NCBI GenBank assembly: GCA_014871385.1
Contig: CM026426.1
Span: forward strand, 25,633,437 to 25,697,436
Origin: Ceratodon purpureus
Lineage: Eukaryota > Streptophyta > Bryopsida > Pseudoditrichales > Ditrichaceae
DNA length: 64,000 nucleotides
Direction: 5' to 3'
This document shows positions 1,906-37,309 of this stretch, piece by piece (position 1 is the stretch's first letter; each line of letters starts with the position of its first letter). A model generated the notes under the pieces. It was given only the letters and a program-made list of their open reading frames with translations. It did no database searches and had not been told where the DNA came from. The position numbers and the translations under genes are program-made.

Positions 1906-2029
1906 CTAGGTAAATTCGTTTTACCCTTACCGTGAGTCAACTGGTCAACGCCCTTATGTGACGGACACGGGGGTCTGTCTTGTCACCATGACGGACTAAC
2001 GGACTAACGGACGGTCTGTCCATTATGAC

Positions 2030-13199: not shown

Positions 13200-13207
13200 A
13201 GTACAGT
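13200..13207. repeat. Left target-site duplication AGTACAGT
   Basis: These eight bases abut the CAGGG terminus at 13208 and recur exactly at 37302-37309, next to the other terminus. An 8-bp duplication is the hAT hallmark. Confidence 0.92.
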
Positions 13208-13227
13208 CAGGGTTTTCTATGCCGTCG
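13208..13227. repeat. Left terminal inverted repeat
   Basis: The 20-bp end begins CAGGG and is inverted at 37282-37301 with a single mismatch. GTCGTGAC words follow internally (near 13229 and 13254) and recur near the right end (about 37226 and 37243), so they are candidate subterminal binding sites. Confidence 0.9.
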
Positions 13228-13560
13228 GGTCGTGACTTTTCCGTCGCGACGTCCGAATGGGTCGTGACGGGGGTCCTCCGACGTCACAATAGGGGTCAGC
13301 GTAGGGTCCTCTAGGTCCTGCGAGTAGCGTGGGTAAAAGAGTTACTCGGCCCCGTTACGTGGCGTCCTACTTGGAATTGCGGTGGCCCCGGACGGTGACG
13401 TGGATGTCCGGAGGAGTTCCAACGGCGGAGTCGGGCGGACAAAGACGGGCAACCGATTTAGGGTTCAGGGGCGGACGTGTTTAGGCCTGGCGGACGATTG
13501 AGGAGGAACACGACCGTTGAATGCCGGGGAAGTCCGCGAGTGGGCCGGACTGGTAGGCGG

Positions 13561-13861
13561 ACATGGCTCGGACGGGCGTGTAGGCGGGCATAATGCGTAT
13601 CCGGGTGGGCGGACTTGATGCCGATTGTATTGCGGACGGAGGTTGTCGGACCGGGCGGACGCGATGTGGACGAACACATACAGGGTGGTCCGCGATGGAG
13701 TGGGGTGTTGGGAACATGGCTCGGACGGGCCTGTAGGCGGGATAATGCGTATCCGGGTGGGCGGACTTCATGCCGATCGTATTGCGGACGGAGGCTTTCG
13801 GACCGGGCGGACGCGATGTGGACGAACACATACAGGGTGGTCCGCGATGCTGTGATTGGGA
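13561..13861. repeat. Two tandem 150-bp subterminal units
   Basis: Units at 13561-13713 and 13714-13861 are almost identical, both starting ACATGGCTCGGACGGG and rich in GGGCGGAC. They lie 350-650 bp inside the left terminus. Open frames on both strands here are repeat artefacts. Confidence 0.85.
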
Positions 13862-14311
13862 ACATATTGTCTTCAATTTTCATACAGCTCAACTGCTTCA
13901 CGAGCAAATATGAAATTCGAACCATCCGACACTACTGAAGTGACACACTGACCAACTACTTCTCAAACCGATATTGAATTTCATCAGATTATATATTGTA
14001 ATCGAGATGAATCCATTAAAACATGGCTGTCTTGGTAGAAGTTTAGTCAGTGAAAGAGTATAGCTCTGAAGGTTCCTTATAAAAAACAGGACTTCCGTGA
14101 TAGTAGCTTAGTTATCAAACGAGTATAGGTCCGAAAATTCCTTACAAACAGTCTTTGATCAAAGTTTTCCTGGTTTGGATGCACAGTTGGGAGTTTAAAA
14201 AAGGTAAAGTGTCTAAGCTACTGTAAGAAAATTCACTGCGTAGTCACAATGCAATCCATTCCGTCGCTGAGATACAGTCGCAGTCTTCCAAGAAATCGGA
14301 GGTGGAAAACA
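13862..14311. other. Non-coding spacer before the RING gene
   Basis: The segment is moderately AT-rich with no motif-bearing frame. It would hold the 3' untranslated region of the minus-strand gene ending at 14312. Confidence 0.4.
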
Positions 14312-15846
14312 CTATTTTGATTTCCGGCGGCATGTAGAGGTCGACTTGTCCTTGCGCGCATAATTCCACCCTCCAATGTCCGAGTTCAAATGCTTGCGCC
14401 TCTTTTCTCCCTCTCCGGTATCCGGCGCACTGCTAATCCCCACTCGCGCTGTTGTAGCAAAACTCAGATATCAGTTCCGGACCAGCGCCCTGGACACTCT
14501 AATGCACAGTATCATGTCAAAAACGAATTTCAAAAAAAAATTGCTTATCAGATGCAAGATACAGACTCATAAGTCGGAAGTTTTTCATATTCGGTTCCGC
14601 AACGGATTCAGCAATACTGGAAATCAATGCACATGCGCGACATTGACGTACCTTCGCACTTGAAAAAGCCGAAGCTGTTCAACCAGTTCTCTGCGAAATG
14701 CTCCCCGCATCTTGCGCAGTTCTGACTAAGCGACGTCCGCACTGCAGCGCACCACGGGTGGTATGGGCAAGCGCACGACGCAGTCACGAGGTCCATCGCC
14801 GGAAACCCTTGGTTACAAAGGGAGCAACCTTGCACTGTAAGGGTAATTGAGTCGATGTTCTGAGTGGGCGCTGCGATTCGAGGACTGGGGGCCCGGAACA
14901 TTGATGTAAACGACCATATCTAAAGCTGGCGGAGATTTTCTTTCAAGCCCATCACCTTGTCCCTTGCATCCTGCTTTGCAGAAGACAGGCGTTTCTCAAC
15001 CTCGATGGCCACCGCGAGATCCTTCGCCGACGTTTCAGTTAAATCCTCCTTCATACGTTGCACTTCCTCCCCAGCCTCCAAGATTCTCTGTTCTTCGCCG
15101 TAAATTTCGTCTTTGAAGAACCTCAGGAATGTTTTATCAGCAGAGCCTTCGACGACGGACTTCATCGCCCCCCACTTCTGCAGTTTCGCCTCGGAGGAGT
15201 CCATAGTCTCCTCAATGCACATCAGCTTGATCTGAAGCTTGTACCTGTCCATATCCGTGAGCGGTGGCTTGGCCGTCTGCCTCAGAAGCGCAGCCCGTTC
15301 GTGTGCAACACTATGGATTGCCACGGCCGTCTCGAAGTCCTTCTCAGCGTCCGCAATCTCGGCTTCCAGGCCCTTGTAGAGGGTTTCGACGTAGGTGGCA
15401 TTCCGGTCAGGGGTGCGATACAGGACTGTGAGTTCGTCTCCGCTCTCGATTTTCTTACCCCTCCAGCGATCCTCCGCATACTTTGCCCAGTACATTAGGT
15501 AGCGATGGAAAACCTCCGAAACGACCGCTCTCGCGAAGCTCTCCGGGAGGAACAAACCCGCAGGAAGCTCGGGAATTTGAGAGATTGCTGGGTACAGCTC
15601 CAACACTCTCGCCTTGACCTCTCCTGAATTCGCTCCGTCAACGAGATATCCCTTCCCAAGAACCCTCTCTCCGAATACGGACCTTAGCTCCTCATTGCTG
15701 ACATGGTTGCAGTCGAAGGCGGGGTCCAAACCTGCATTTGGCAACCCAACCTTCACGTGAAAGTAATTCTCCTTCCCAACTTCTCCCATTCTGACCCCTC
15801 TCACTCGCAACAGGTATATCCCTCCTCTTTGATCGGACCGGGGCAA
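14312..15846 (-). CDS. Coiled-coil RING-type zinc-finger protein, interrupted by an in-frame TAG
   Basis: Reading from 15846, about 300 residues give a compact N-terminal part (GGIYLLRVRG ... FHVKVGLP, weakly like a GIY-YIG/T5orf172 fold) and a long Glu/Lys/Ala-rich coiled coil. A TAG at 14920-14922 follows, and the same frame resumes into a RING-like finger, C-x2-C-x13-C-x-C-x2-H-x2-C-x10-C-x2-C. That exon ends at 14652 in AAG|GTACGT. The likely acceptor is CTACAACAG at 14449, and the phase-1 joint gives a basic C-terminus ending in a TAG at 14312-14314. The role may be E3 ubiquitin ligase (inference). It shares architecture with 19719-21730. The TAG could be a nonsense mutation (CAG to TAG) or part of an unrecognised intron (CTTTAG is acceptor-like). 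The first codon in the frame is TTG. An upstream frame at 15692-16102 contains a hydrophobic helix (about LVGVAIAFWF) that could be an earlier exon. Confidence 0.6.
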
Positions 15847-16102
15847 CCTCAGACCAGCGAACTACAAGTTGGAACCAGAATGCAATGGCGACTCCAACCA
15901 AAACTCTCAGCGATGGCGTGGATTGAATGGAACTGCCCTGGCCATGGCTACCCCTACAGGCAGCCGCCATATTTAACGCCAAGGTGGTCATCTCATTATG
16001 GTGATTTGAGGGGTTGAGTTCGGATTGGCGACTGTGACTTGACAACATACCTTTCAGGACTTCCTGTCTTCGTACTCCTCCTTCAACACTCAGTGTATCC
16101 AA

Positions 16103-17019
16103 ATAGGCTCCATCATTGCAACATGAATATGGTGTTTCAAATGTCCTGTAGGCTGTGTGGTAATAGATGGTTTAATAGATGGATCAACACGAAATTCATT
16201 GCATTCAAAAAAATCTATGCACCTTGTAATTCTACTGAAGTGTCACACCGATCAACTCTTGTGTTCGTAAGTTCTATTGGGAATTTTCGTTCATGAGTTG
16301 GTCACAGTTTGAATTTCACGTTGTTGAAGAGGATTTGTGACATTGCCTCGGCCTAAGCACGGGACACTAGCCGTATTTCTCGGCCAGTCGTCCGGTCTTT
16401 CCGACATTCCTCGTCGCCAGGTTTGAAGACCGAAGTGGTTTAATGTAGCGGACGATTGAGGCCGGACAGGCGGATGCGGATCGGGGTTTAGAGTCGGAAG
16501 GCAATGATATGCGGACGCGGCTGGGGCGGACTGGTAAGCGGGCATGATTCGGACGCCAGTAAGACGGATCGGAGAGCGGGCACAACGAGTACGCGGAGTG
16601 GGCGGACTAGATGTCGGACAGTGGTCACTGCAGGAGGGTGTCGGATCGCACGGATTCGAGGTGAACGGGCACCATCCGCGGGTGCAGTGGGCAAGGGGGT
16701 GGTCCGCGTCGTCGGACCATTTTCAGAGGGTCCGGCGTGGAATAAACGTTGGGTGTTTAGGGCTCTGGTCCCAATATTGTGGAATTACAATCACTCTATC
16801 ATGGCTTCGGGGTCAGGAATTTGACAAACAAGCTCTATTTACAAATTGATCTGTTCAGAGACGGTACATGACCTTCTATGCGCCTAACCTGGGCGAATGC
16901 AAACTCGGACCCTGGTGTTCAGAATGATATAGTTATATTCAAATTGTCAGACCACTAAGAAGCGGTACTTGCGCGTTGGACAAAACGTTTCTAAGGAGTT
17001 TTGCATACTCACATGTGAT
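16103..17019. other. CGGA-rich non-coding interval
   Basis: About fifteen CGGA words occur in roughly 225 bp near 16450-16675, against about one expected. No frame has recognisable content. It lies between the 5' end of the RING gene and the 3' end of the kinase gene. Confidence 0.5.
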
Positions 17020-18954
17020 TTATGAATGGGTGTCCCGGAAACACATATTCGGTGTTTGCAGATTGTAAGGTGGTAACTTCAACGTCCTCACGACGTGTGT
17101 GACGGTTTGCCTAGCAGCCGGGTTGATCTGGGTCATTTCGTCTAAACCCTGCTCAAAGCGCATCTTAACCCCGTTAGGATCGCGGTTCTGCTGAAATAGA
17201 ACCGATGTCGAGTCGGAGTTGTAAATTTGCCTTGCGAGTACTCCAACGCTATAGGACTCTGATTTGTACGTGTGAGGGTGCTGCTTTGCCATGCGACGTG
17301 GGGATGAGCCTCTAGAGCCATGCACATGGAACAACTCCGGAGCGGCACAACTGTACATTTTCATGTGCTTCTTTATCGCGTCTTCGCTCTGTACTCCGTA
17401 GTACGAAGGGGCCGATTTGGGCATGAAAGAAGCCATTCCCCAGTCACATATACCTATGAAAATAGCTCCGTCGCGGTCTGTTGGAAAGTGGAGCATGACG
17501 TTGTTAGGGTGCAGGTCGCAGTGTAGCACTTCCTCGCCGTGTACCACATCCACGATGCACATGAGAGCCCAGGCCAAGTGAGCTCGATTTTTTCGGTAAA
17601 CGACCAGCTTCTTCCGGGCCTCGAAGTCCAGACCTGCGTCTTTGAGGAGTTCCATTTCATGGGTTTCCCCAAATTTCAAATCGAACGCACGCATGTTCTT
17701 CAACGAGCCTCCGTTCCACCATAGCGAGTACGACTCGAGCGTCTTCCGGTTTAGGTATTGCAGCTTAATCACACCAGGGTGATCAACTGGACATGACATT
17801 GCCTCGATAGAGCGTTGATCGCGACTTGTCTTGAAGTCAGTCACCTTCATGGTCTTCCCTGCAAAATGAAGCCACTCCGGGATGAATCATGCCTCTGCAA
17901 TTTGCACCCTTTGCACGATTCCAAACGAAACCTGAAAACTATTTTCGTCTACGGGGATGGCGTAAGAACCCTTCGGTAGCCACTTCAGACCGTTTCTGTC
18001 CCGAGAAGCGATGTTGTCGGCCAGAGCTCTCCCGACAAACTTCGGCAGTGTACTCCTTCCCTTCCCCTTCGCGAGGATAGCACCTCTTTTCCAATTCTCC
18101 AGCTTCTGTAGGAGCTCGGAGTTTCCCCCACTACATCCCGAACCAGGTCCACACAACATGTTAAATGGCACTGTTGAATTGAACGATGCCTCCTTCACCT
18201 GTTCCTCGATCCACTGTCCCCAATTGCTCTTCCCTCTATCCTCCTGGAACTCATCCCCCGCCATGCCCTCCTGCAGTAGTAACCTCAGAGCATTCGAAGC
18301 TTTCTCGAGTCCCGCCGGACCATCATTCAAGAATGTACTCTCCAAGTATGGCATGTTCTGGCTAGCAAACCATTCCAGGATTAGCTTTCTACAGCAAAGC
18401 CTAGCCTTCGTGGAATGCTGGTCGTCCTTGGCTACCTTCTTCCGATGCTTGTGCTTCCTAGCCTCAGAATCGGACGCGGTAGATCCAGACTCCGTTCCTT
18501 GCGACCCCCCTGCCCGCTTAGTTCCCCTACGCTCTTCAGTAGACGGCGGACACGGGTCGGACGGTGCCGATGTCCACAATACCCTAGGTAGTGGTTTAGG
18601 TGGCGGGACGATTTCCATGGCGGGTGCTTGTACTCCGCTAGAACTTCCCGAGCTCGCTGGACCAGACCTAGTGCCTTGGCTGCCGATGTTTATCGCGGCG
18701 TGGCTCTCTATCGCGCCGTGTTGCCCCCCAGATCCATGGGTTGCACGAGAGCCGTGACTCCGGGAACCATGGCCACCCCACGTTCCCCGCGCTCTCTGCA
18801 AGTGGCCTCCTCCGAGGTTTTCCATCGGGGTGAATTCCTGATTAAACCTGGTTCTCTCTCCGCCACGCCCCCCGCCCACCCTGAGTGCTCCGGTGGGGCT
18901 CCCGTCGGATCGCCATTCCTGATGTATGCGTCCACTCTCGTTTGCCATGGTACT
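17020..18954 (-). CDS. Atypical protein kinase with low-complexity N-terminus, interrupted by an in-frame TGA
   Basis: The ATG at 18946-18948 lies just after a strong acceptor (TTTTCTTCTTTTCCAG), so a 5'-UTR intron is likely. The first 353 codons encode a Gly/Arg/Ser-rich region, a basic stretch RKHKHRKK (possible nuclear signal), a conserved-looking helical segment and the glycine-loop-like SFGIVQRV. A TGA at 17887-17889 follows. The same frame then continues through FAGKTMKV (beta-3 lysine), WWNGGSL, HCDLHPNN (HRD-type loop with Asp and Asn), ICDWGMAS (DFG-type) and AAPELF (APE). All core catalytic residues are present, so an intact copy could be active. The TGA sits where an Arg CGA would fit. 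The TGA may be decay, a sequencing error or recoding. A fragment paralogue lies outside the element at 892-1404. Confidence 0.7.
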
Positions 18955-19178
18955 CTGGAAAAGAAGAAAACAAAACAATCAGCAATTGGTTTTTGGGTAG
19001 GCGAGTCAGTTCAGAACCCTGATATAAATTAGCAAGGGTTTGTCTCTGAAATCGGTCCCGTGCTCTACTGACCCTCCGGACCCGCGCACTGCCGCTGTCC
19101 CGACGGACGCAACAGAGTCTCGGATCCCAACAAGAGGCCTAGAGAGGATGGGAAAGTGAGCGGAAAATAAAGGGACAC

Positions 19179-19190
19179 CTTTATATAGGA
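19179..19190 (-). promoter_or_regulatory. TATA box for the kinase gene
   Basis: The minus strand reads TCCTATATAAAGG about 230 bp upstream of the kinase ATG, with a probable 5'-UTR intron between (GTCAGT donor candidate near 19070, acceptor at 18955). Position and sequence fit a core promoter. Confidence 0.5.
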
Positions 19191-19448
19191 GACAAGGAAG
19201 ATCATTGATCTGGGACGATAACTGATTGCTTGGCGATCACCCTTGGAAGGGATCGGTCGGGTGGCAGACGTAGGATCTAGGCCTGTGAGCGAATTAGGGT
19301 TAGCGGGTTGGTCGGATCGCACAGTCGGACTTGGCGGACTGTGAATGCGGACGAGGCGGGTCGTCGGACGGGGGGGTTGCTATGTCCGCATGGGCTCGCG
19401 ATCTTATGATGCGAACGGATGGGTCGATCGGTGATTGCACCACGCGTA

Positions 19449-19545
19449 CTCGGACGCATGGGCGGACTCGGACCCGGACGCACGGGCGGATTCGGACTCG
19501 GACGCATGGGCGGACTCGGACTCGGTCGCATGCGCGGACTGAAGG
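19449..19545. repeat. 24-bp CGGA-type tandem array (about 4 copies)
   Basis: The unit is roughly CGGACGCATGGGCGGACTCGGACT with small changes. It is a locally ordered version of the CGGA vocabulary that fills much of the element, lying in the spacer between two cargo genes. Confidence 0.75.
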
Positions 19546-19718
19546 GATGATACTCTTTATATGGCATATATCCAGACTTAGGCGTTGGTGACTCTAGGTG
19601 AGTCTTCGGGAAAGGAAAAAGCCAAATGAAGTTATGTTTATGCAATGGTTACTATAGTTATGAAAGAAAATAAAACATTGTTAATGGTTACCACTCTATA
19701 CAGTTCTAGGAGTTCATC

Positions 19719-21730
19719 TCACTCCGAATCGTCTAATTGCAATGTATCACCTGATCCGGACGCTGCACTATTGTGGCCAGGTTGCGTTGGGCCCTCGGAC
19801 GGCGGAATCGGCGGTGTCGGGACTCTGGAGGGAGGTGCCGACTGGCTTGGGTTCAAACGGGTTCGTGACGCGTTCCTCGTGGAATTCCCCGGCGGTGTCG
19901 CGCTCCTTGGTGTGGCCCCTGAAGTTCCTGAAGTCGAAGCACCACTCGATAACAAGCGTTGACGACATGATGGCTCCTTCGGCTTGGGCCTCGGTCCTTT
20001 CTTATCCAGCCACCTCTTGGTAGCGGGGAGAATTTTGCATAACAATTCTTCTAAAGCGAGAATCTCTAGCCGCATCATGTGGTAACCCTGTTCGTAAGCC
20101 ATCTCGTTCCTACTGTTAGCATCCGTATATCCTCCTGGAAATCCTGCCAATACGTCGGCAGATGTCGCAGGCAATCCTTGTGAATTCACTGGATTTGGAT
20201 TCTCCCCTGGAACCAGCTGGCCCTTCCTACTGTCCCAGTAGTGTTTGCACATCTGGTAAAAGTATTGCCTGAGTCCACTATCGACAGGCATCCCTGGGTA
20301 CAACAAATCGGCCGCTTGCATAATGGTCTTCGGTCTCTTTAGCAAGTCCGTAGGCTGAAATTGGTGCCACATCTCGAGCTGCGACGTGTGTAGTTGCCAG
20401 ACCCACTCCATTGGTTTTCCCTCGAAAGTCCTGAGCGGATAGTTAGCTGGGAACTCCCTTAGATCGTACGCCCAGCCCAGCCCCTGGGCATGAAATCCCT
20501 CAATCCGAATGTCAAATACAGGCGAGGATGGAGAGGGGCTGAGCAGATTGGACACGCACGTCTTCTTATCATCATCGGGATTAAACAATATGGGTGAAAT
20601 CCATGTTTGCACGTCCCCAGTTGGTAGCATCCCTCCGGGCCAAAAGGATTAAAGCACACAATGCAATTGGTTCCGTCCTTTGTCATTTCGTGCGGGACGG
20701 GCCAAGTCAGCGCCTCCCGCAGCTCTTCGGTCTTGCCCATCCCCCATTTCTGATCCCGCTTCCAGTGATGATCAATCTCAGCAACATTCTCCCACTGAAT
20801 GCTGCCCGTGCCGGACCGCATCCCCGGACTGTCCTCCCATTCCGGAGGGTACATCGTCTGTAAAGGCGGCCAGGAGGTGAGGAGCAAGTGTCGCAATCGT
20901 CCATTCTCCGTCCACTCTTTCTGAATTGCCTCGAATTCCTTCTCGTACTGAAGTCGCCCCGCTAATGCAAGTATAGCGATCATGTACATATCCTCCGTTT
21001 TTTGGAGCGCACCCACGAGTAATGCCTTCTGCTCCTGAGTTAATGACTTGGACCAGCCTTGGATTGGATCATCGTTGGCATTACCTTCATTCACAGCGCC
21101 AGTGGCCTTCCCAAGCCGTGTTACCTCCTCTAGTAGTCGCAGGTTCTCTGTCTCCAATTCCACCACCTTGGCATTGTTTGCTTCTTTCTCCGCCTCTGCC
21201 TCCACATTTATCAAGTTGTCGCTCGTCGTAGCGACTTCCCGGAGCTCGTTTAGTTCTTCCTGTGTTTTCTTTGCCAAAGCTATTGCTTCCGAAGCCTTAT
21301 TCTTATTATCTTCCATTTTGGACTCCAGTCGCAGGATTATCTCTCCTTGCTTCGATGTGTTCTTCTTCTCCTCCTCCAGTTGGCGAGACAGTCTCCAACA
21401 TTCGTCTTCCATTGCCTTCGCACGTATCTCGGATTCCTCTAGTCGGACAGCCCGCTCCGTGGATGTGGCTTCCGCCGCTATTGCTCGCTTTTCCGCATCT
21501 TCGAGTCGGATGCTCATCTCCCTCGTTTCCGTTTCCAACGCAATTATGCGTTCCTCAGCGTCCGTGAGTTGGCCATTTAACTGCGTGGTCAGGTCCTCGG
21601 CCGTTTTCGCTGCGTACATGGAGGCTTTCATATCCTTTTCCCATGCATTAGCCCGTGCCTCCGCTCTCTCAGCGGATCTCAGCGCCTCGTCCCTTTCTCG
21701 CATCAACTCTGTGTCCGATGTTCCTGCCAT
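19719..21730 (-). CDS. Coiled-coil RING-H2 protein with C-terminal conserved region, broken by one frameshift
   Basis: I take the ATG at 21728-21730, because the frame upstream lacks an ATG. Residues about 5-215 are a strongly charged heptad-like coiled coil. A helical region and a RING-H2 finger follow: C-x2-C-x14-C-x-H-x2-H-x2-C-x10-C-x2-C (NCIVC ... CKHGFHPYC ... CPIC). After CPIC the frame reads RLYLTFGLRDFMPRGW and stops at 20459. The coding sense continues in the next frame from GLGWAYDLREF to the end at 19719, with a Pro/Ser/Thr-rich acidic tail. The switch lies in the GGGCT repeats at about 20470-20487, so a slippage indel is the simplest explanation. A role as a RING E3 ubiquitin ligase is inferred from the finger only. 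Spacing of the finger matches the RING protein at 14312-15846. Confidence 0.68.
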
Positions 21731-21799
21731 CTGGTCCCGGCTGTCGGACACGCGAAGAGCCTCTATCTTCAGTTCCAAACCACAGGGGGAAGCACAATA

Positions 21800-22494
21800 A
21801 AGTGAACCACAAAAGTGCTTATCTTTTTTCCAATTTCAGCCCCTTCTGTAAAGACTAGAGAAAGTGGGATTTACGTTATGTTGATGCAAAATTAAGTTTG
21901 GGATACGGAAAGTAGACTTGATCTTCTTCAACTTCCCAAAGTTGCGAGAAAAGATATTGAGTTTACAATGGAAAACGGAGACGTCAAAGTCAGGCAAAGT
22001 GAATGGTCGTCATTTGGAAGAGTGAACATAACGGTTTAGGGTTTTGTCCAAAATCACTTTTAATTTCGTGGTGCACTCTATATGTTTAAGAAGTATTCTA
22101 AAATAGTCAATTAATATACTCATTGATTGGTTTAGGGTTCCAAAAGTACCGCAAAGTACCGAGGGTCACTTCCACGGTACTTTTTGTGCGTTTTTTTTCA
22201 CCGAACATTGTTTTTTAAATTGAAAAAAACATCCTCTAAAGACAATAGATGGCTCCAAATGAAGAAATTAAGACTTTGGAAAAGTTCATTTTCATGAATT
22301 AGAACTAGTGGTCAAATTAAGTTTCAATTGAAGATATTCTTTTTATGAAGATGTATATAAGATACCTTATGACACCCTAGGAAGTGACTAAAATGCTCAT
22401 AAACTACACCAAAATGCTCAAAAACTACACCAAAATGCTCAAAATCAGCTTTGAGCCTTAAAAAACAGCACACTTCATATTCACTTGTTGGTGG
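21800..22494. other. AT-rich spacer with a short tandem repeat
   Basis: No gene is visible. A repeat of about 20 bp based on ACCAAAATGCTCAAAAACT occurs three times at 22388-22445. Confidence 0.6.
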
Positions 22495-23802
22495 TCACAT
22501 TTTGCACTTTGTGGTCCACTTTATTGTGCTCTCCCCCCCACCTATTGTTGCTTTTAACTCCCGAACGTCCGCGTCATGTTTGGCAAAAACTTCCTCTAGC
22601 AGACGCCGCATTACCGGGTCTGCTCCCAATACAACGTTTGCTGCACCTCTCGGCTGAGGAGGATCGTGATGGGCAGTGCTAGTTGTCGCACCTCGTCCGA
22701 ATAACCCGTGTTCCGAGCCGGGCATCCGCCAATCCCGTGAGGTCGTGGGAGCGATTCTCCCATCAAATCTGTGGTCCGACCAACCTAAACCCACGTCCGA
22801 CGCACCCAGACCCTCGTCCGACGCACCCAAACCCTCGTCCGACCTACCTAAACCCGCATTCGCGCTCTCGGTCCCACCGTGCGCCATGTCAAGGTCTATG
22901 TCAGCTCCAGAAAAGGAGGCTACTGTCGTGTTGACGATTTCTTCCAATCCGACCATAGCCACATCTGGCCCGGAACTCTCCTCACCTGCCTCGGATGGTC
23001 CCCATGCCGATCCCGTCCGATCGTTCCCCCCGTCCCTCGCATGGGATGCAGTCGCCGCGCCCGACCCTTCTCCCGCACTCCCGCCAATGATGGGGTCCGA
23101 CCCACTTCCCTGCCAATCGGATCCGAGCATGCCAGCCATCTGATCCTCGTACGTGGCATTCTGTATTGTGCGTTGCCGTGGTCTCCCGGCCCTCGTCGGT
23201 TCCCTGTCTGTCGGTATCGGACCCCCTGGATCTTCAACGAGGGAGGGATTACGCTTGAACCATTCGGGCACATCTATATAAGGTATGTGCACCGGCTTCT
23301 TCGCTGTCAATTTCTCTCTTAGACCTCCGAAAGTGGAGCCTGGAGTCTTTAAGGTAGACCAGTCGACCTTCTTCTTCAACACATGCTCGGCATACAGCAG
23401 GGAAAGAATAGCCTTCGGGATCTCGTTCTTGGGCCACTTCGATTCATTGGAAATTGCCCGAAGAATGCAGAGGAATCTCCACTTCACGTCCACGTCTGTC
23501 AAGGATGCATATTTCGCGTTCTTCGACTTACAGTGTTGCGCGTGCGAACTATCTGGCCAAAGCCGATCGAAATGAGGAAAGTCGACAAAATGCATAGCCG
23601 TCGCAGCGTCCCAAGGCTCTGGCACTTCCTCCCAGCCATTAGCTGCCAGTATCGCTCTATTGTGGAAAACGTCCAGCTGCAAATCCAGTTCTTTGCGGGC
23701 TCTCTTCCCGGAACCACTGGCGGACTGCGATCCGCCGGCGGACTCATCTCCGCCCGGTCTGCTCGGCCTCCTCCTAGAGGGAGTGCCCGATCCGGTGGAC
23801 AT
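22495..23802 (-). CDS. Unrecognised 435-residue protein with internal GLGxSD repeats
   Basis: The ATG at 23800-23802 is chosen; the frame extends ten codons upstream only to a GTG. The N-terminus is Ser/Arg/Gly-rich and basic (GSGKRARKE). Residues about 35-190 look globular (for example KWRFLCILRAIS and HIPYIDVPEWFKRN) and could be a DNA- or protein-binding domain. The second half is low complexity and includes four copies of a GLG(A/R/W)SD(E/V) unit encoded by 24-bp DNA repeats (about 22776-22856). The C-terminus near 22550 has a short helix and then GGGE. A GT donor-like site at ATAG|GTGGGG suggests that the real exon may end before 22540. I do not recognise the family and assign no function. 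Confidence 0.5.
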   Translation of the reverse strand: MSTGSGTPSRRRPSRPGGDESAGGSQSASGSGKRARKELDLQLDVFHNRAILAANGWEEVPEPWDAATAMHFVDFPHFDRLWPDSSHAQHCKSKNAKYASLTDVDVKWRFLCILRAISNESKWPKNEIPKAILSLLYAEHVLKKKVDWSTLKTPGSTFGGLREKLTAKKPVHIPYIDVPEWFKRNPSLVEDPGGPIPTDREPTRAGRPRQRTIQNATYEDQMAGMLGSDWQGSGSDPIIGGSAGEGSGAATASHARDGGNDRTGSAWGPSEAGEESSGPDVAMVGLEEIVNTTVASFSGADIDLDMAHGGTESANAGLGRSDEGLGASDEGLGASDVGLGWSDHRFDGRIAPTTSRDWRMPGSEHGLFGRGATTSTAHHDPPQPRGAANVVLGADPVMRRLLEEVFAKHDADVRELKATIGGGESTIKWTTKCKM

Positions 23803-23918
23803 CCTCGTGCTGCGAACTTCGGACCTGCTCACAGTATCTTGGTTAGATCCTGATACGATTACTCTTAAACCCTAAACGGACACTTCGCATATGCTGGGTT
23901 CAGGGGAAAAAATTAACA

Positions 23919-23931
23919 TTAAGTATATAAT
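23919..23931 (-). promoter_or_regulatory. Possible TATA box for the 435-residue protein gene
   Basis: The minus strand reads CATTATATACTT about 120 bp upstream of the chosen ATG. It is a weak match supported mainly by position. Confidence 0.3.
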
Positions 23932-23934
23932 GTG

Positions 23935-27129: not shown

Positions 27130-27470
27130 CGATAAATACAGAGTGATTACTAACAAGAGTATTGCAACGATATTAAAATTAGAATTAATTGGTGGCAATG
27201 ATCAATTAGATGGCATAAGAGCGAAAGTAGACTAAAAAATAATATAGAAGTCCAACTACAATTCCGATGAGGACAATTAAATTTCCTAAAAAAATATAAC
27301 GACCGTATAAATTATACTACGATTTAACTAGGTATGACAAAGTTGGTTGGCGTGTAGGCAAAAGGTTTAACATATGTAGGCAAAAAGTTTTGGATATGAA
27401 AGGCGTTTCAATTAAATCTTAACCGCAACCTAACGCAACGTACCGCAACTTACCGCAACTTACCGCAACT
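27130..27470. repeat. Direct duplication, copy 1
   Basis: From CGATAAATACAGAGTG onward the sequence matches 28193-28529 with only a few differences. It ends in an AACTTACCGC tandem run (27,420-27,490). Copies this similar suggest a young duplication or two ends of one inserted element in direct orientation. Confidence 0.85.
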
Positions 27471-28192: not shown

Positions 28193-28529
28193 CGATAAAT
28201 ACAGAGTGATTACTAACGGGAGTATTGCAACGATATTAAAATTAGAATTAATTGGTGGCAATGATCAATTAGATGGCATAAGAGTGAAAGTAGACTAAAA
28301 AATAATATAGAAGTCCAACTACAATTCCGATGAAGACAATTAAATTTCCTTAAAAAATATAACGACCGTATAAATTATACTACGATTTAACTAGGTATGA
28401 CAAAGTTGGTTGGCGTGTAGGCAAACGGTTTAACATATGTAGGCAAAAAGTTTTGGATATGAAAGGCGTTTCAATTAAATCTTAACGGCAACTTACCGCA
28501 ACGCACCGCAACTTACCGCAACTTACCGC
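28193..28529. repeat. Direct duplication, copy 2
   Basis: This is nearly identical to 27130-27470. Both edges of this copy are marked by ATTGTGAGGTAGCACTA followed by a poly-C run (28,138-28,176 and 28,529-28,578), so a flanking segment is duplicated too. Confidence 0.85.
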
Positions 28530-28621
28530 ATTGTGAGGTAGCACTACCCCACCGCTGCCCCACCCCCCCCCCCCCCCCTTTCGTAACAATGAGGATAATG
28601 GGATTTGGGTTTAGAGAGCAC

Positions 28622-28703
28622 GTATGCACATGTTTCTAATATGCACATGTTTCTTATATGCACATGTTTGTTATATGCACATGTTTGTTATATGCACATG
28701 TAC
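28622..28703. repeat. Short tandem array TATGCACATGTTTNTTA, about five copies
   Basis: Five copies of an approximately 17-bp unit are visible (ATGCACATGTTT followed by CTAAT, CTTAT or GTTAT). It lies in non-coding AT-rich DNA. Confidence 0.85.
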
Positions 28704-29559
28704 GCAAAATCAACGTAATTACTATACTCATGTGTTGGTTGCATAAACAAACATTTAAAAAAATATATAAAAATATATCTCCAAAGATTAGAGATTTTAC
28801 AGGAATCTTGGAATGTAAATGCCGTAATTAGTAAATGATTGTCACACGCTTTAATAACTTGTTATTTGGGCTTTTATAAAACGGATGCCAAAAAATTCCA
28901 ATGTTTTCCTTATTCCATTTGTTTTTTATAATACAGATTCTCACTCTGTTTGTAAATCACGTACAATTACATCCACATGTGGAATACTATACCAAATGGG
29001 ACTTCCCACGATGCATGCTCTACGAAATAATGATATTTTTATTATTCGGAACATGATAAAATAGACAAAATTGAGGGACCGCGGAGGGTGCACTCTAATA
29101 CGCACGGAAGGGAAGTGAACTGTACGCAAACAGGGACGAGGATTACAATGCAACCCGTCCGACCTGCAGCGGACATCCGGCAACGGGATCGGACGAGTAG
29201 CCTCCGAGATCATCCAATCAGTATAGGCGCCGGACAGTGAGTCGGACAGTGCCATATCCGGGGTAGCGAAGAGTGCATGTCTGACACAGAAGTGAGGATG
29301 GCGCGAGGAGGGGAGTGCGAGGAGGGGAGTGCGAGGAGGGGGAGTCGGAGGGGCAAGACACAGAACACTAAAGGATCCACGGCGGACGAGGTCGGAGAGC
29401 CACCAAAAGGGGATATTAATTGTGGGCGGACAGAGGTCGCACATCTGTCGCGGAGCAGACCGATTCATGCGCGGACGGGTGACGAGGTTGTCGGACACGG
29501 CTCGGATAAGTACGGAATGGAGGTCTCCTCATATCGTAGTATGAAGACTAGGCGAGCGT

Positions 29560-32500
29560 TCACTCTCGGATCCGAACAGTTGGGTCGTTGGCTTCGTCGC
29601 AACGTCGGTCCTCCTCGGATTCATCTGTGCTCATGTCGTCATCAGACCGCGGACTTCTAGTGCTTAGCCGCAACTCATCGTCTCTGGTGATAACTAGCTT
29701 CTTCGTTGGACGGGATCCTTGAGGGTCGCGTATTCCATTTTCATCGAGTTCAGGTCTACCTTCGGAGTTGTCAGGTTCGTACGGGGCGAAACGCGACGCA
29801 GTCCCCTGGAACCTTTTCTTTCGCTTTACACCTCTTGTTGTTCGTTGGATAACACTTCCCCTTGCAGGACCACTGGACACTCTTGCCCCAGTCGTGCAAC
29901 TAGATGCACGTGCCGCAGGGTCCCGGATCGACGTAGATGGAACCCCTCTACGCACGGGCCGGCTGCGCGAAGAAGACGCGGTCAGAACAACGGACTGGCT
30001 ACCGTTGGTTACAGCAGATCCTACTGCTCGGCGTCTGCGACCCCGGCCGGAGGTCTGCTGCGGAAGGATGTGACCCCTACCAACGGGGGTGGAGAGCAGG
30101 GCAGAAGCTGGCTGTTGCTGGTTTACAGCCATACTTCCGGACGTACTAGCAAGGCTTCGAGTTATGGGACGGCGTATTTCCTCAGACGGGGTCTGAACTT
30201 CCTGGTCGGCCATCCTCCTTCTCGAATCTTCCTCCGTCATTTCATCTCTCCGGCGATTGATAGGTGGTAAATCCTCCTGAAAAACTGTTCGAATCTCTCC
30301 CTCCATGTTCGCCAGGTTCTCGTCGAAATCCCTCTGGCCAAATGACAAAGAATCACTCCAAGGCTGCGAGAAGTCCGTGTCGACGATAGGTATCCTCCGG
30401 GCCGGACTACCATCTCCTCTGTCCGACTGTATTTCTGCTTCGTTGATCGGACTCTGAGCTCGACGCTCACCTCCTGCATACGCCTGCCGTCCGACGCGAC
30501 TATCCTGGCGGAGGATATCTTCAACCGCATCTCGGCGATGTCCTGCGTCGAACATATTGTGGAAGAGCTCGGCAATCCGGACATTGCCACCGTCGTCACC
30601 GTCAGATCCTGCGTCGTCCGATCCGGATTCCTCAAAGTCGCTCTCGGGCGGATCGTCGTCCGCAAGTCTGACACCCCCCATGCCCAATCCGCCCTGTCCG
30701 ACACCATCCATGCGGGCATCGTCCGCCACATCGTCCGCTACATGGTCTCCTCCCCGTCCGACGTCTTCCTCCTCGTCGTCCTCGTCCGGATCCTCGCCAT
30801 CGAGGTCATCGTCGGAATGAACCTCCTCTAAGCCATACCACTGTGCCGGACGCGGGGCCCGGCGGTGACGAACGAGTCTACTGTTCGTGTAGATATACAG
30901 GAGGTCCTCCGCTCGTACATGTTTCAATCTATTGCGCACCTTGCTGTGCACGTAAGAGTACATGCTCCAGTTGCGCTCACACGCAGACACGGAGCAAACC
31001 TGTCCAAGTATACGTCTAGCTATTGTTTGGAGAGCCCAGGCTCCACCTCCCATTGCGTCCCACCATTCGTGGATAGCAGTGCCGTGCGCCTGGGGATCGG
31101 TTGAATCAGCAAATGCCTCCCGATTCTCGAGGAAATCCTGATACAGGACAAGGATCTGGACGTAATTCTCCTCGTTAGAGGATAACTTGCGAAAAACCCG
31201 GTTTAAAATGATCCTCGACTCCTCGTGGTTATGAAGTGGCGCCCATCCACGTAGGGTCGGGTTGAGCATCGCACCTGCCCAATGAAGATCTGTCAACATC
31301 ATAGCCCATCTGTGGTCGAATGCGACCATGGCGTCTGCTGCCAGGTCCGCGTTCAATCTAAACGGATGGGAGGAAAAACTGCGGACGTGGTTCTTCAAAT
31401 CGTACATCGCCCTCCAAGCTAGGCCCATTGCAGGTGCCTTCCCATCAAAAAGGCGTAATGCCTTCACCACTAGGATGACCATGTATAAGAAGTTATGGCA
31501 CGTGTTCCAGAAACCGTCCGCACGCACGTACTTCCGAAATAGGCGGACCCTCTTCCCTGCTGAGCTGTTCACATCAGGATAGGTTGCTAAAATACCTGCA
31601 AACGCCGGATCGATGACCATTCTCTCAAATGCATTCCGAAGTTCCACAAGACGCTCGATCATAATGAAATTCGTCGCGAACGCGTCTCAACGGGCAAACG
31701 GATGGTCAGATTGGGACACATCCTGCGAAACAAAGCCATTGATGAATGATGATTTCTAACCCATAGACAAATAAGTCTCGCCTTTCGGACTATGTGCTTC
31801 ACCCAATCCTGCTTCCCCCAATCTTCGAGCAACAGATCCAAGCAATGTGCGGCACACCCTTGAACATAAATGTGAGGATATCGTGTCTCGAGCATCCGAC
31901 TGGATCCAAGCATGTTCGGAGCATTGTCAGTGCAAACTTGGACCACATGTTGCGGTCCGACCCGTTCCACAAACGGACGGATCTGAGAAGCGATGTAATC
32001 GCTATCTTTGTAGTGTCCCGTCGTGTCTATGGTTCCAAGGAAAACGTCGCCCCTGGTCCCACTCTGGATAACATTCAGAAGAGGACGACTCTGGACGTTG
32101 TCCCAACCGTCTGCACATATCGTAACACCGTATTTCTCTGTGGAATTGCCCGTGAGTTCCCTTACTTGTCTCACCATTTCCGCCTTTCTCGCGCTCAACA
32201 GTTTTGTGCGAATAGCATTCATCGATGGCGGCAGGTATGCCGGGAAGCGGGCTCGCACTGTTTCCCGAACGGCGTTAATGAAGGCAGGATGCTTAATAAC
32301 GTTGAATGGGATATTGGCTTCGTAGAATGCCGTCGCCCACACTTTATCTAATCGAAGTTTCGTGGAAGCATTGAATCCTTGCACAAGATTCACTTGACGC
32401 ATTTCCCTGGGTGGAGAACCCTGGGGTGCCATATCAAGCTCCTGCATAGCTGGCCCATCATTCGCGCGCGCCCCCTCGTTATCGGGAGCTTGAGGTATTA

Positions 32501-32804
32501 CCGGATCTGGGACCCCGTCACCTCCCAAGCCAATGTCATGAACATCATCGGGCTCTCTTCTAGGAACTTCACCTCCGCAGTCTACGAACAACCTCCTCAC
32601 CCGCGCACTCAGTAATCAGCAAATTTGTATACCGTAGTTACCTGGACCACCTAAAGGTCTTTATCCAGAGTGGGCGAACATTCTATCCCGACCGTACACA
32701 ATAGTCACATTACAAATTCTACACCTAACCTGTCTCTGAGGCCTCGCACCCACCACGCCCAAGTCTTGCCACCACTGATCCCAGGCCTCTACTCTTCGCG
32801 GCAT
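29560..32804 (-). CDS. hAT-superfamily transposase (BED finger, DUF659, dimerisation domain), frameshifted
   Basis: The protein begins with a BED-type finger exon (ATG 32802-32804; VRCRICNV ... MFAHSG), a TAA and a likely GTAACT donor at about 32647. The main exon opens near 32614. DUF659 motifs follow in order: CADGWDN (first Asp), CTDNAPNM (second Asp) and CAAHCLDLLLED. The frame stops at 31659 after VETR. The next frame carries on with FATNFIMIERL and the hAT C-terminal region ACERNWSMYSYVHSK (catalytic Glu, dimerisation). One missing T near 31680 explains the break. About 430 further residues form an acidic then Ser/Arg-rich tail with basic patches (RGRRRRAV, RGVKRKKR), much longer than usual for this family. 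The product should bind the element's termini and catalyse cut-and-paste. As sequenced it is interrupted by a stop and a frameshift. Confidence 0.85.
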
Positions 32805-32849
32805 GCCTGCGACAGAATGCAAGAATCTGGAGGGTGAACGCACTATTTA

Positions 32850-33829
32850 AGGCAAGATGGACCTATTACAGAAATTGCGCCCGACAACGCACTTCTAGCG
32901 TCGTTGAACGAGGGTGGAGGGATGGCCTTGCCCTGATTATGTTCCAGATCTCCGATGGAGTTCGGACGGTCCGTTCCAGTGGGCTATGCTTGACCCCTTG
33001 AGCACACTTGGGTCTCATGCAGAGGAACCTCAGTCGAGACCCCAGAGTCCTGAGACACGCAGTGCAAAGAAGGGAGAACAGATCGTGGTGAGTCGCATCT
33101 TTTATGGCACTCCCCGAGCGTGTCCGGGACCAGGAAGCGGAACATCGCGGAGTTGTTCCGGGTGTTGCGGACGAGGTCGGACGAGAGCGGGATCGATGGC
33201 GGTCCAGTAACCAGATTCGTTTTGGTCCGCGTTGTAGGAAAAAGATGGTCAGGATCTGCATATTATGGCAGTCGTGTGCTGACATCGGGGAGGTGGTTCG
33301 CACTCCGTGAGATTGGCCCGTGTACGGAGATGGATGAACCACGGACGGGCGGACTACCTGAAATCCGATCAATTTGCGGAATGTGGTCACTTCATAATCG
33401 GACATGGACGAGGTACCCCGACGGATTAGAGGCTCAGACGTGGTCCGCCGATCGAAACGTGCGCGTTCCGGAATCGGTCGGACGCGACCTCGGGGCAGTA
33501 CTGCGGCGAAGGCGGACATAGTTGATTACAGGAACGATTAAACAATATCGCGTCGTTCTTCTAGAGCATAGGTCAGGGGTCGGAACTTTGCGAAGCGGAA
33601 TCCGACTTCGGAAAGTCGGATTGTGTCTGGACAGTGAAAACGGCGCCGGATAATACGAACCCCGCACATCCGCCCTTTGGCAGGAGATTGTGCCGGTCCG
33701 GTCTAGCGCGGATGGTGATCCGGCACGGTCGGATAGGGGCAGCAGGCAACGGACGTTCGGATTCAATCCGAGGCAGCGTCGTCCGGCAAAGGGCGAATGG
33801 CGGACTATAGTGCGCGAGGTATGCCATGA
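32850..33829. other. CGGA-rich non-coding interval
   Basis: This is the spacer between the divergent transposase and plus-strand genes, with frequent TCGGAC and GGACGAGG. Open frames in both directions are compositional. Confidence 0.5.
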
Positions 33830-33837
33830 TATATAAA
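33830..33837 (+). promoter_or_regulatory. TATA box TATATAAA
   Basis: This perfect TATA match lies 80 bp upstream of the ATG at 33917 and is correctly placed for a short 5' untranslated region. Confidence 0.6.
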
Positions 33838-33916
33838 CGGGAAGTGCGATAACACAGGTCCCTTTTGATGCAGTTAGCCCGCAAGTTATTGTGGACGAGT
33901 CCTCTCCAGTTACAAG

Positions 33917-34375
33917 ATGGATCCTTGTGACATAACTTGTCTAGAGGATGAGGTATTAGAGTTCTTGCTCTCTTGGAATCTCGAGAGGAACGAAGTCGTT
34001 GGGGACAGTGATAAGGAAACTGCTCCAGGAGCGGGCAGTGGAGACAAGGACATCGGCGTAGACAAGGTACAAGTATTGGGGGGAGGTCTATGCATTCCAA
34101 CTAACGAGGGATGCAAGTGGAAGGACAACAACGAGTACGGGAAGCCCGGAGGAAGTAGTAATGGGAGGTCATCCCCAGCACTGGGAAGGAAGCATTCCAC
34201 CGCTGCTACGACCGCGATAGGTCCGATACGAAGAAACTCGCGGGGGAGACCAGTCGCATCCGTAGAGACCGAAACTTCAAAGCCTAAGACTTACGTCGAG
34301 GAACTGGAGGCGATTTGGCCATCCAAGTACCTGAAACTTAAGAATGACATCGAACAAGCTAGGAAATCTAGGTAG
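33917..34375 (+). CDS. Unrecognised 152-residue protein, the only plus-strand cargo gene
   Basis: The ATG follows a TATATAAA box at 33830-33837. The N-terminus is acidic (MDPCDITCLEDEVLEFLLSW), the middle is Gly/Ser-rich with a basic patch (PIRRNSRGRP), and the C-terminus is helical (YVEELEAIWPSKYLKLKND). I see no known domain. It is transcribed away from the transposase across a 1-kb spacer and may be a small regulatory or accessory protein of the element, which is inference only. Confidence 0.5.
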   Translation: MDPCDITCLEDEVLEFLLSWNLERNEVVGDSDKETAPGAGSGDKDIGVDKVQVLGGGLCIPTNEGCKWKDNNEYGKPGGSSNGRSSPALGRKHSTAATTAIGPIRRNSRGRPVASVETETSKPKTYVEELEAIWPSKYLKLKNDIEQARKSR

Positions 34376-34751
34376 TTACGAAGTAAATAGTGTCCGGTTA
34401 AATACGGAGAATCTCCGTTATCGACGCAATGCATTAGCAATTAGATAAGAGGTTGGAAGATGCATGTCTGCTTAGAAACTGCACTGGATGGATATTTCCG
34501 AAACAGAAAGGAGATATCAAACTACGGGGGACGTTCGGAATAGCTCCATCATTATAAAACATAAATATACTCTGATCATCGGAAGATCAGCATAATAATA
34601 AACGGGGAATAAATATTATAGTAAGGCCGAAAATTTACGAAAATTCTCGTCCCATATACAAAATAGTCAGAGAAAGAGAAGGCCAGAGTTAAGCATTCCA
34701 AGATTGGTAGTGAGCAGAATCATTAACAGCTGCAACACTCGTCTATTAAAA
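34376..34751. other. Spacer, nothing recognised
   Basis: This AT-rich interval lies between convergent genes and would hold their 3' ends. Confidence 0.4.
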
Positions 34752-35591
34752 TCAAGCGTTTTCCCAAAAACTCTGCTGAAAACCCTCCTGTTTGTTCACA
34801 ATATCCGACATCTCACCGAGATAAGGCATCGTTCTCCAGCAATACCGTTGGAACTCGTAGTCCGTCATTTCGCGAGTCTCGTCACTTTCATGCTCCGAGT
34901 GGTCTTCCTCCTCGTCCACCTTACGCTTCTTAGCATCACCGTAGGATCCGCGTGTCGCATTAGGGGATTCTGCATTCGCCCTTATGGATCTACGAGATCC
35001 CAGCGCAGCGTCTTCAGCTTCCATCTCCAATGAAACCTGGCCAAGTCCCCTGATTCTATCCCGGCGGAGTGGCGTCGTCCTCGTCTGACTTCCAGCCCTC
35101 CACCATCGGGCATGCGCGCATGCACACCCCTCACGCACTCGATCGCTCGATGGACCCCCAGTCCGTGTCCGCACGATCTTCCGACCCTCCTCGTCCCTCC
35201 GGACCCCACTTTGCACCACCCGTTCCGCTGGAATGCGCACGCGCATCGGATGCATGATGCCTGTGCAATTCGCCACGGATTGGAACTGCAACACTGCGAC
35301 TGGGTCCGAGTTGGACGCCCACAGACGGTTCTCCATAAGGGGCACGGCGGAGAAGTCGGGACACAAGAGGCCATACTCTTCCTGAAACGCGTCGACGGAT
35401 TCGAGCCAAGTCCGTAGACATTCCTTGGATCTCGGCACATCTTTCGCAAGTTGAAACTCCCCTCCCCTTCTCCTCGCTGCATCAACCCACACTGGCAAAT
35501 CCGCGGATTCGTAGTCCGATCGGAGAAACTCGCTTAGGCACCGGCTACTCCCTTCCATACAAGATGGAGGGCACTCGCGCGAGCAAGCCAT
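34752..35591 (-). CDS. Unrecognised 279-residue protein with a nuclear-localisation-like motif
   Basis: The ATG at 35589-35591 gives MACSRECPPSC. The first half contains Cys and Trp residues (LPVWVDAARRR, CLRTWLESVDAF) and may be globular. The middle is Arg-rich. The C-terminal third carries KKRKVDEEED, a classic monopartite nuclear signal followed by an acidic run, and then YEFQRYCWRTMPYLGEM. A nuclear role is inferred from the signal only. Strand and composition match the other cargo genes. Confidence 0.5.
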   Translation of the reverse strand: MACSRECPPSCMEGSSRCLSEFLRSDYESADLPVWVDAARRRGGEFQLAKDVPRSKECLRTWLESVDAFQEEYGLLCPDFSAVPLMENRLWASNSDPVAVLQFQSVANCTGIMHPMRVRIPAERVVQSGVRRDEEGRKIVRTRTGGPSSDRVREGCACAHARWWRAGSQTRTTPLRRDRIRGLGQVSLEMEAEDAALGSRRSIRANAESPNATRGSYGDAKKRKVDEEEDHSEHESDETREMTDYEFQRYCWRTMPYLGEMSDIVNKQEGFQQSFWENA

Positions 35592-36282
35592 CGGGCACGG
35601 CTCGAAATGAGTTGAGGTTGGTGCAGGTCAGCGTGCGGAGAATAGACAATGCTACACCACGGAGGAAGAACGTTTTCCGCAATGGTGCTGCATTACCAAC
35701 GGCGCTCAACACATAGAAGAAGGGAGGCGATGATCATCATAGTTCCAAATGGGCATTTAATTTTCCCTCTCAGTTGCAATAAAACTAGTAATCCACCTAG
35801 ATTTTGGATTATGAAATCAATCCCAAGTTGCGAACAGACGTACACACAGTTATAACAGGGCCGACGGTATAATCATAAAACGTAACACGCTCGATACGTC
35901 TAGGGATTATGATATCATTCATAATACACCCTATCACACGAGTATCACTTGAGAACAGAATTGATAGTCGCCCCCGGACATGTATTGGCATCATGAACTT
36001 ATTAGTGACCACGCATGTACAAGTATGATTACAGTATCATCAATGATTTAACAATTAAAGTTTCATGATTCCAATACTTACGGATTCAATATCATGATAA
36101 ACTAGCCTTATTCGGCTGCGATGCAGTGTCCGACCCGTTGTCCGATAGGCGCCGGAGAATGGTCGACACCAATCCGACCATCGCAGACCTGCAACTACGC
36201 TAAACCCTAAGCATTGCAGGTCTTGATGTACTAAACTGCGATGTTCGGTACCCTACACCTTAGTGTTTCAACGAACAATATC
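35592..36282. other. Spacer, nothing recognised
   Basis: This is mostly AT-rich DNA, with a small TCCG-rich patch near 36,120-36,180. Confidence 0.4.
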
Positions 36283-36630
36283 CTAGGATTCGTCTTCAGA
36301 ATCCATAAAAGGCCGCAGGTTGAATGCAAATCGGCTCTGGTACCAACGTGGCTGAATATCCACAAAGTTCCTCCACCCCCTGCAAACACAACGGAGGAGT
36401 GTGCATGTTCTGTAGTTCTCGATGTCGTCGTCCTCGACCATCAACATCTTCCAGATGATGCCCTCCGAGACGTCTCCCGGGATGGCAGGTAAGAAACTCG
36501 GCCTGACTCTCGTCCCCATCTCCACGATCGCCAAATACTCTTCATCGTCGCTAAAGTCAGAGTCGTTCCTAAACTGGGCTGGCCCGAACAAGGCGATAGG
36601 ACTCCCTAGAATCCCAGCACTGTGAGCCAT
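36283..36630 (-). CDS. Small F-box-like protein (115 residues)
   Basis: The ATG is at 36628-36630. After an acidic N-terminus (DFSDDEEYLAIVE), residues about 50-90 follow the F-box pattern: Pro, an amphipathic helix (EGIIWKMLMVE), then LLRCVCRGWRNFVD, the classic Cys-Arg-x-Trp segment. An F-box would link the protein to an SCF ubiquitin ligase, which is notable beside two RING proteins. No substrate-binding repeats follow, and the protein ends soon after. It may be truncated or one exon. Recognition is by pattern only. Confidence 0.45.
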   Translation of the reverse strand: MAHSAGILGSPIALFGPAQFRNDSDFSDDEEYLAIVEMGTRVRPSFLPAIPGDVSEGIIWKMLMVEDDDIENYRTCTLLRCVCRGWRNFVDIQPRWYQSRFAFNLRPFMDSEDES

Positions 36631-36658
36631 CGCTGAAATGCAGTCAAAGTGTCACGTT

Positions 36659-36877
36659 TCAACGAGCCGTTACCGAAGTGGAAAATAATGCACCGATTCC
36701 TAGAACGACCATGAAGATAAAGCAGGCGTAGCATAGAACGCCAGTCCATTTGATGGGAGTCCACCGGGATATGTTGCCGGACATCCGAATTCGATATGCG
36801 TCGGACCCGAACTCAGGTCGGAACATGGCCGTCGAAGGTACAATGTCGAAATAGTGGCCGAACCAGGGTCCGACCAC
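36659..36877 (-). CDS. Small open frame with one hydrophobic helix
   Basis: The last 30 residues hold a plausible membrane helix (VLCYACFIFMVVLGIGALF). It sits just upstream of the F-box-like frame on the same strand and could be an upstream exon or a chance frame. No homology is recognised. Confidence 0.2.
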   Translation of the reverse strand: MVGPWFGHYFDIVPSTAMFRPEFGSDAYRIRMSGNISRWTPIKWTGVLCYACFIFMVVLGIGALFSTSVTAR

Positions 36878-36879
36878 GA

Positions 36880-37281
36880 GGAGTGCAGTAGAATGTGGCG
36901 GACTTCGTCGGAGCCGACAGCAATCGGATGGCGGATAAGCGCCTTGAGGGATGCCGGAATGCGGACGAGATCACGAAGACCCGTCGGACGACGGGGCATC
37001 GATCCGGCGGAAAGCGGATGTCGGATCGGACATCGGACTGGGTATCGGATCGTACAGGGTGGCGCGGACGAAGCGGACTGGTACTGGGGCCCACCAGTAT
37101 CAGACCACCTTTATCGCAGACGTGGACATCGGCTGTCCGAGGTGTCGCCGGGGCGGAAATGTAAAAGTGAAAATGTTGCCGTAAATATTTGGGCCGTCGC
37201 GATAAAGACCGAATGGGACGTCCGGTCGTGACTGTACACCGTCGTGACGTCCCGACATTATAACCCGAGAGGGGCACGTCG
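36880..37281. other. Right subterminal CGGA-rich region of the giant element
   Basis: Dense CGGA words (for example GTCGGATCGGACATCGGACTGG) and GTCGTGAC words lie just inside the right terminus. They probably include transposase-binding sites. No gene is supported. Confidence 0.5.
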
Positions 37282-37301
37282 CGACGGAATAGAAAACCCT
37301 G
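37282..37301. repeat. Right terminal inverted repeat
   Basis: It reads CGACGGAATAGAAAACCCTG, the inverted counterpart of 13208-13227 with one mismatch. Confidence 0.9.
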
Positions 37302-37309
37302 AGTACAGT
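37302..37309. repeat. Right target-site duplication AGTACAGT
   Basis: This is identical to 13200-13207 and directly follows CCCTG. Confidence 0.92.

Follow-up and report, generated by a model that had tools for sequence, protein, structure and literature searches.

The DNA analyzed here is a stretch of 64,000 nucleotides from Ceratodon purpureus (the window, C6:25633437-25697436), taken from a genome of 362.5 Mb in 151 contigs. A family of RuBisCO small subunits is encoded in this genome (41 matches; among 14 control genomes Synechococcus alone gave a match), which makes a photosynthetic host probable. Between positions 13208 and 37301 the window holds an element of 24,094 bp, nested insert included, with its gene set on the minus strand, and this element is very probably a giant hAT DNA transposon with several genes, in decayed form; its kinase and RING genes we read as old partner genes. 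An earlier note on this DNA had described an hAT-type element with CAGGG inverted ends and a perfect duplication of its target, and both are present: the left terminal inverted repeat CAGGGTTTTCTATGCCGTCG (13208..13227, plus strand) and the right one (37282..37301, minus strand, reverse complement CAGGGTTTTCTATTCCGTCG) match at 19 of 20 positions and at 89% over 28 nt, and the 8-bp target-site duplication AGTACAGT was read at 13200..13207 and again at 37302..37309. Searching the window, which contains no N, for 8-bp duplications around inverted termini of at least 15/20 with ends 1-45 kb apart returned this pair and one other (16/20), and in five first-order Markov shuffles the counts were 0, 0, 0, 0 and 1, the single match being 15/20.

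Genes of the element

The transposase gene (29560..32846, minus strand) was identified by Pfam domains and frame comparison. The earlier note was right in placing a DUF659/hAT transposase inside the element, as both domains are found (DUF659, E 4.7e-39; hAT dimerisation region, E 2.3e-7), but the window copy has no open full-length frame. As its transposase is broken, the domains lie in two separate frames (29560-31662 and 31659-32600). An intron, as the two frames might suggest, was rejected because five of the six other full copies possess a single open frame of 1095 codons (five of seven copies overall). The copy on C8 encodes a single frame of 1081 amino acids with DUF659 (3.2e-37) and Dimer_Tnp_hAT (9.6e-8), both above the Pfam cut-offs, and the transposase of intact copies also has a long C-terminal tail. 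Genome-wide, 22 of the 43 transposase matches scored (1457 candidates at first look) are free of stops. A phmmer search against the PDB gave no transposase match.

The remaining genes also lie on the minus strand. A protein kinase gene (17020..18978) is interrupted by a stop in the window and open in five of seven copies; the C8 frame has 644 amino acids and a Pkinase match of 9.1e-10. The gene for a RING-like coiled-coil protein (19719..23871) is split by the nested insert, and in the C8 copy it encodes 944 amino acids from the first ATG, with a zf-RING_2 score of 24.3 bits against a cut-off of 27.3. P417 (14608..15861) is truncated in the window, its 417-codon frame being open in six of seven copies, and its cysteine-rich C-terminus looks RING-like by eye. 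By frame comparison P218 (25550..26197) and P291 (34752..35591) have a full frame in six of seven copies. None of the latter three matches a Pfam family in the C8 copy frames. The F-box match of a small frame at 36283..36651 is weak (16.9 bits against a cut-off of 20.5). A direct repeat of 300 nt (98%) lies inside the element at 27130-27429 and 28193-28492, 1063 apart, and gives the same cross-matches in other copies.

In the window copy the transposase, kinase, RING and P417 frames are interrupted. It also carries a private nested insert of about 754-758 bp with 29-bp inverted repeats (90%) at 21784..22537 (start about 21780, boundaries uncertain by a few bases, no strand assigned), which is missing from the six other full copies compared. 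A 3-4 bp repeat (CAC or CCAC) stands at the edges of this insert. With its broken transposase and the insert the window copy is dead. Since the insert is private to it, the unit that moved into the window site was most likely about 23.3 kb long. Hence the earlier claim that all 24,094 bp moved as one holds for the movement as a unit and not for the length, the family length being about 23.4 kb.

Copies, duplications and unoccupied sites

The 31-bp left end occurs in 57 exact copies across the genome and the 40-bp right end in 54 copies with at most 3 mismatches; the reversed control sequences gave 0 in both cases. For 36 of the 57 left ends a correctly placed and oriented right end was found within 100 kb (35 distinct right ends), and 22 of these 36, the window copy included, have a spacing of 22.2-24.6 kb. 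Controls with the wrong geometry gave 1 pair for the wrong side and 3 for the wrong orientation. Seven full copies, again with the one in the window, are 97.5-99.2% identical and collinear except for the window insert and small indels. The earlier statement that the element is far larger than ordinary hATs is supported. The window copy is the most distant from the majority (1.33%, the others 0.15-0.64%). An internally deleted copy of 2,366 bp retains the same ends and is flanked by a perfect duplication of its own, and longer end pairs whose outer duplications match span 28,772, 32,242, 33,585, 39,229 and 43,163 bp, the extra DNA of the last including an element of a second family described below. 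One diverged copy (93-95% identity in its three longest blocks) has kept six genes out of seven; its P417 end is unaligned.

The earlier note had proposed to look for further paired ends with duplications of their own, and perfect 8-bp duplications were indeed read in 14 of 18 end pairs, all 14 being different. We sought a target consensus in them and found only T at position 3 (7/14) and A at position 6 (8/14), so that none is claimed. It had also proposed to look for an empty site with a single AGTACAGT. Using the joined flanks of the window element as query, 37 of 39 matches cross the joint, the best with 96% over all 112 bases, and the remaining two are the window copy's own flanks. A second query with the joined flanks of seven of the 14 copies gave, among the best 40 of 1005 candidates, 38 matches for C4_17.0 and two for C6_16.2, all crossing the joint; the remaining five copies could not appear among these 40. 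The duplication is single in all six unoccupied sites read, which belong to three copies, and three of these six are sites of AGTACAGT. They are paralogous places in a dispersed repeat and not an empty allele or strain, and the best explanation is that the window copy was inserted into a dispersed repeat and decayed afterwards.

On C6, which has 110,524,308 bp and which we take to be the V sex chromosome of C. purpureus, lie 28 of the 57 left ends, although it makes up 30.5% of the genome (P 0.0025); among the paired left ends it has 16 of 36. Giant hATs may therefore have helped to enlarge C6. At CG and CHG sites C-to-T changes are roughly twice as frequent as at CHH sites (0.043 and 0.037 against 0.019), as would be expected for methylated copies. 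The copies at C8:7117291 and C6:51368801 share identical left-flank bases (AAGACATA GCCTCACC) and differ in their right flanks, for which an exchange between the two elements is possible.

A second family and the proposed partner genes

A second family of giant hATs was found in the same genome. On C9 it is represented by a stretch with a RING protein (850 amino acids), a transposase (1148 amino acids) and a kinase (522 amino acids) between CATGGTTGTCATAATGGAC ends 15,718 bp apart. Compared with the first family, the transposases are 40% identical over 714 columns (E 2e-164), the kinases 33% over 459, and the RING proteins 32% over 266 and 28% over 82 near the N-terminus (E 2e-34), so that by sequence comparison all three genes are homologous between the families. 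P417 shows 25% identity over 84 amino acids to the RING region of the second family (E 7e-5). hAT transposases possess catalytic acidic residues and a CxxH motif, and the candidate motifs CADGWDN, CTDNAPN, CAAH and SACERNWS are found at corresponding places in the transposases of both families. The kinase motifs HxDxxxxN, DWG and APEL are likewise kept in both, which suggests that both kinases are active. The gene order differs: the kinase gene follows close behind the transposase gene in the second family and is distant from it in the first, and the RING gene lies on opposite sides of the transposase gene.

An 8-bp duplication was also read for one copy of the second family. This copy, of 16,469 bp and nested in a first-family element, has GCCTGATT on both sides, and the corresponding site in the C8 first-family copy is undisturbed with a single GCCTGATT. 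Its transposases are free of stops in 35 of 40 scored cases. There are 83 exact left and 136 exact right ends, of which 45 and 47 were used for pairing (the omitted ends were the left ends of C7-C13, the last left end of C6, the right end on C1 and those C6 right ends that by eye had no left end nearby). Within 60 kb 38 of the 45 left ends could be paired, 29 of them at 13.9-16.5 kb and nine at 26.5-48.6 kb. Beside the diverged first-family copy lies a stretch whose transposase piece is 45% and whose kinase piece is 27% identical, and which probably belongs to the second family because its DNA is 94% identical to it over 560 bp. In the window itself, outside the element, the 3' part of a second-family copy occupies 1..2036 on the plus strand and ends with ...ACAACCATG. 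It contains a kinase remnant at 913-1392 (plus strand; 36.6% identity, E 1e-26) that belongs to a large family (1069 candidates, 150 of them scored). Two further observations concern neighbouring DNA. At C9:7957949-7960684, adjoining the second-family end, begins a 911-amino-acid frame which by eye resembles a retroelement integrase followed by an unknown C-terminal portion, and in the window a 237-amino-acid frame at 47319-48032 with DDE_1 (1.1e-24) is a remnant of another DNA transposon.

In order to examine selection, changes were compared with their context-matched random placement, using the young copies against the one diverged copy. The transposase was the sole significant frame (ratio 0.63, P 0.002); P218, P291 and the F-box frame gave 1.13, 1.15 and 0.92 (P 0.56-0.75). 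The rows for P417 and the control 351-818 (0.99 and 1.12) were left out as the diverged copy is unaligned there. Some of the divergence of this copy is neutral, since it contains stops. The selection test gives good support to the transposase alone.

Interpretation and known systems

We identify the element as a giant hAT because of its structure, its duplications, the empty sites and its domains. The kinase and RING genes we read as inherited partners of a giant hAT lineage rather than as loose cargo, since two families with distant transposases share them. We infer the chemistry, any current activity and the function of the kinase and the RING protein as follows. In intact copies one minus-strand gene encodes a transposase of about 1081 amino acids. 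To judge from the hATs that have been studied, this transposase should recognise the short inverted ends beginning with CAGGG. It would excise the whole unit of about 23.4 kb and reinsert it where the target is cut with an 8-bp stagger, from which the 8-bp duplications would result. The kinase and the RING-like protein, as old partners of the transposase lineage, probably aid the element in the host, and our guess is that they might target host proteins of silencing, repair or the cell cycle via phosphorylation and ubiquitin-type tagging. As a tentative extension, transposase, kinase and RING-type protein could form a lineage-wide inherited system which acts on the host by phosphorylation and ubiquitin-type signalling, would thereby counter silencing or steer repair or timing, and would in this way have escaped the usual size limit of hATs; we consider this possible, though not the likelier case.

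Several results weigh against the interpretation as a giant hAT with old partner genes. Four of the 18 end pairs have no readable perfect duplication (one matches at 7/8, two are mismatched and one lies in N), the perfect duplication CCGCTCGC of the 43-kb copy sits in tandem-repeat flanks and is weak evidence, and the second-family copy C9:7942243 has unmatched flanking 8-mers, so that a perfect duplication was found in one of the two copies of that family read. The RING matches are below the Pfam cut-off in both families, and the whole RING frame is open in none of the seven copies, the longest piece having 1036 codons (C8). Selection is borderline for the kinase (0.65, P 0.05) and the RING gene (0.80, P 0.05), the two control frames that could be used have values of 0.77 and 0.58 (P 0.41 and 0.08), and among the young copies no frame is significant. 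Finally, for 21 of the 57 left ends no partner was found within 100 kb. None of the outcomes named as refuting in the earlier note occurred: the ends are not confined to short separate elements, other copies pair the same termini, and an assembly join was rejected.

Among the alternatives, the one that survives best accepts the giant hAT and takes the kinase, RING and other genes as passive cargo, captured separately by the two families. From rust fungi an accessory gene has been described that moves passively from one lineage of DNA transposons to another (PMC12730594), and the RING frame interrupted in all seven copies, the borderline selection and the different positions of both genes relative to the transposase are consistent with it. 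Against it, both genes are found with each of two transposases that are only distantly related, and the kinase (33%) and the RING protein (32%) have diverged to much the same extent as the transposase (40%); we regard separate capture as rather unlikely. The size and multi-gene content, being unusual for hATs, might also point to another recombinase that mobilises the unit with the hAT transposase as a passenger. This is very improbable, as 8-bp duplications and short ends fit the hAT criteria given in PMC12506042 and the second family pairs a homologous transposase with an 8-bp duplication. Neither a DUF3435 tyrosine recombinase nor any other recombinase is among the Pfam matches of the ten window frames inside the element and the nine frames of the C8 copy, other short frames not having been searched. 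That the two ends are separate small hATs and the 24-kb unit a product of chance or of an assembly join is hardly conceivable: unpaired left ends and the small 2.37-kb element would agree with it, but the unoccupied sites already refute it, as do the paired copies at 22.2-24.6 kb with their controls, and the duplications, the seven collinear copies at different places and the absence of N in the window also speak against it.

hATs such as Ac, hobo, Tam3 and Hermes are compact, mostly single-gene elements. The element described here resembles the superfamily in its 8-bp duplications, its short inverted ends starting with CA and a transposase with DUF659 and the hAT dimerisation region, and differs from it in having about 23.4 kb and about seven genes, whereas a typical hAT has a few kb and one main gene. 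As hATs of about 23 kb and about 14-16 kb have become numerous here, showing 8-bp duplications and clean unoccupied sites, hAT-type movement in nature is not confined to small DNA. The kinase and the RING protein, found with two 40% identical transposases, offer a case in which the idea of a transposon with signalling proteins of its own can be tested. Maumus, McDaniel and Carey are Ceratodon researchers. The group Lanisha, reported by these authors, also consists of cut-and-paste DNA transposons, and differs in its EnSpm-like transposase and in belonging to a group with 2-5 bp duplications, according to PMC12730594. The terminal inverted repeats of hATs are given as 5-27 bp in PMC12506042, and the element has short inverted termini together with the 8-bp duplication and the transposase domains. 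We found no published report of it in the open-licence literature, which was covered in part and without Repbase, so that its absence from print is not established; in the main text of a review on giant eukaryotic transposons the terms hAT, Zisupton and Plavaka have 0 occurrences (PMC6431247).

ToxhAT/ToxTA from wheat-pathogenic fungi is also large, was once called a hAT and has host-relevant cargo. In contrast to our element it has 14 kb and TA duplications, is non-autonomous and has been reclassified as Tc1/Mariner-like (PMC12506042). VANDAL MULEs from plants carry a gene that regulates their own silencing, a possible parallel in role (PMC12730594), but use a Mutator-type transposase and other proteins. 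In rust fungi the TET-bearing hAT7 and further DNA transposons likewise have accessory genes thought to counter silencing, and IS3EU elements there carry an alpha-kinase gene (Kojima 2025, PMC12730594). They differ in their 7-bp duplications, in a TET/JBP dioxygenase in place of RING and Pkinase, and in an accessory gene described as moving passively between lineages. Starships, with which the earlier note had compared the window element as a carrier of cargo, are giant eukaryotic DNA transposons with many genes as well. However, they are characterized by a DUF3435 tyrosine recombinase captain at the 5' edge (PMC12506042) and by variable cargo, whereas the seven copies of our family are collinear save for one insert and small indels, and no turnover of host genes was seen among the copies compared. 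The comparison as a cargo element is thus not supported in that form, since inherited partner genes fit better than captured cargo with collinear copies and with a transposase, a RING and a kinase gene that recur together in the second family.

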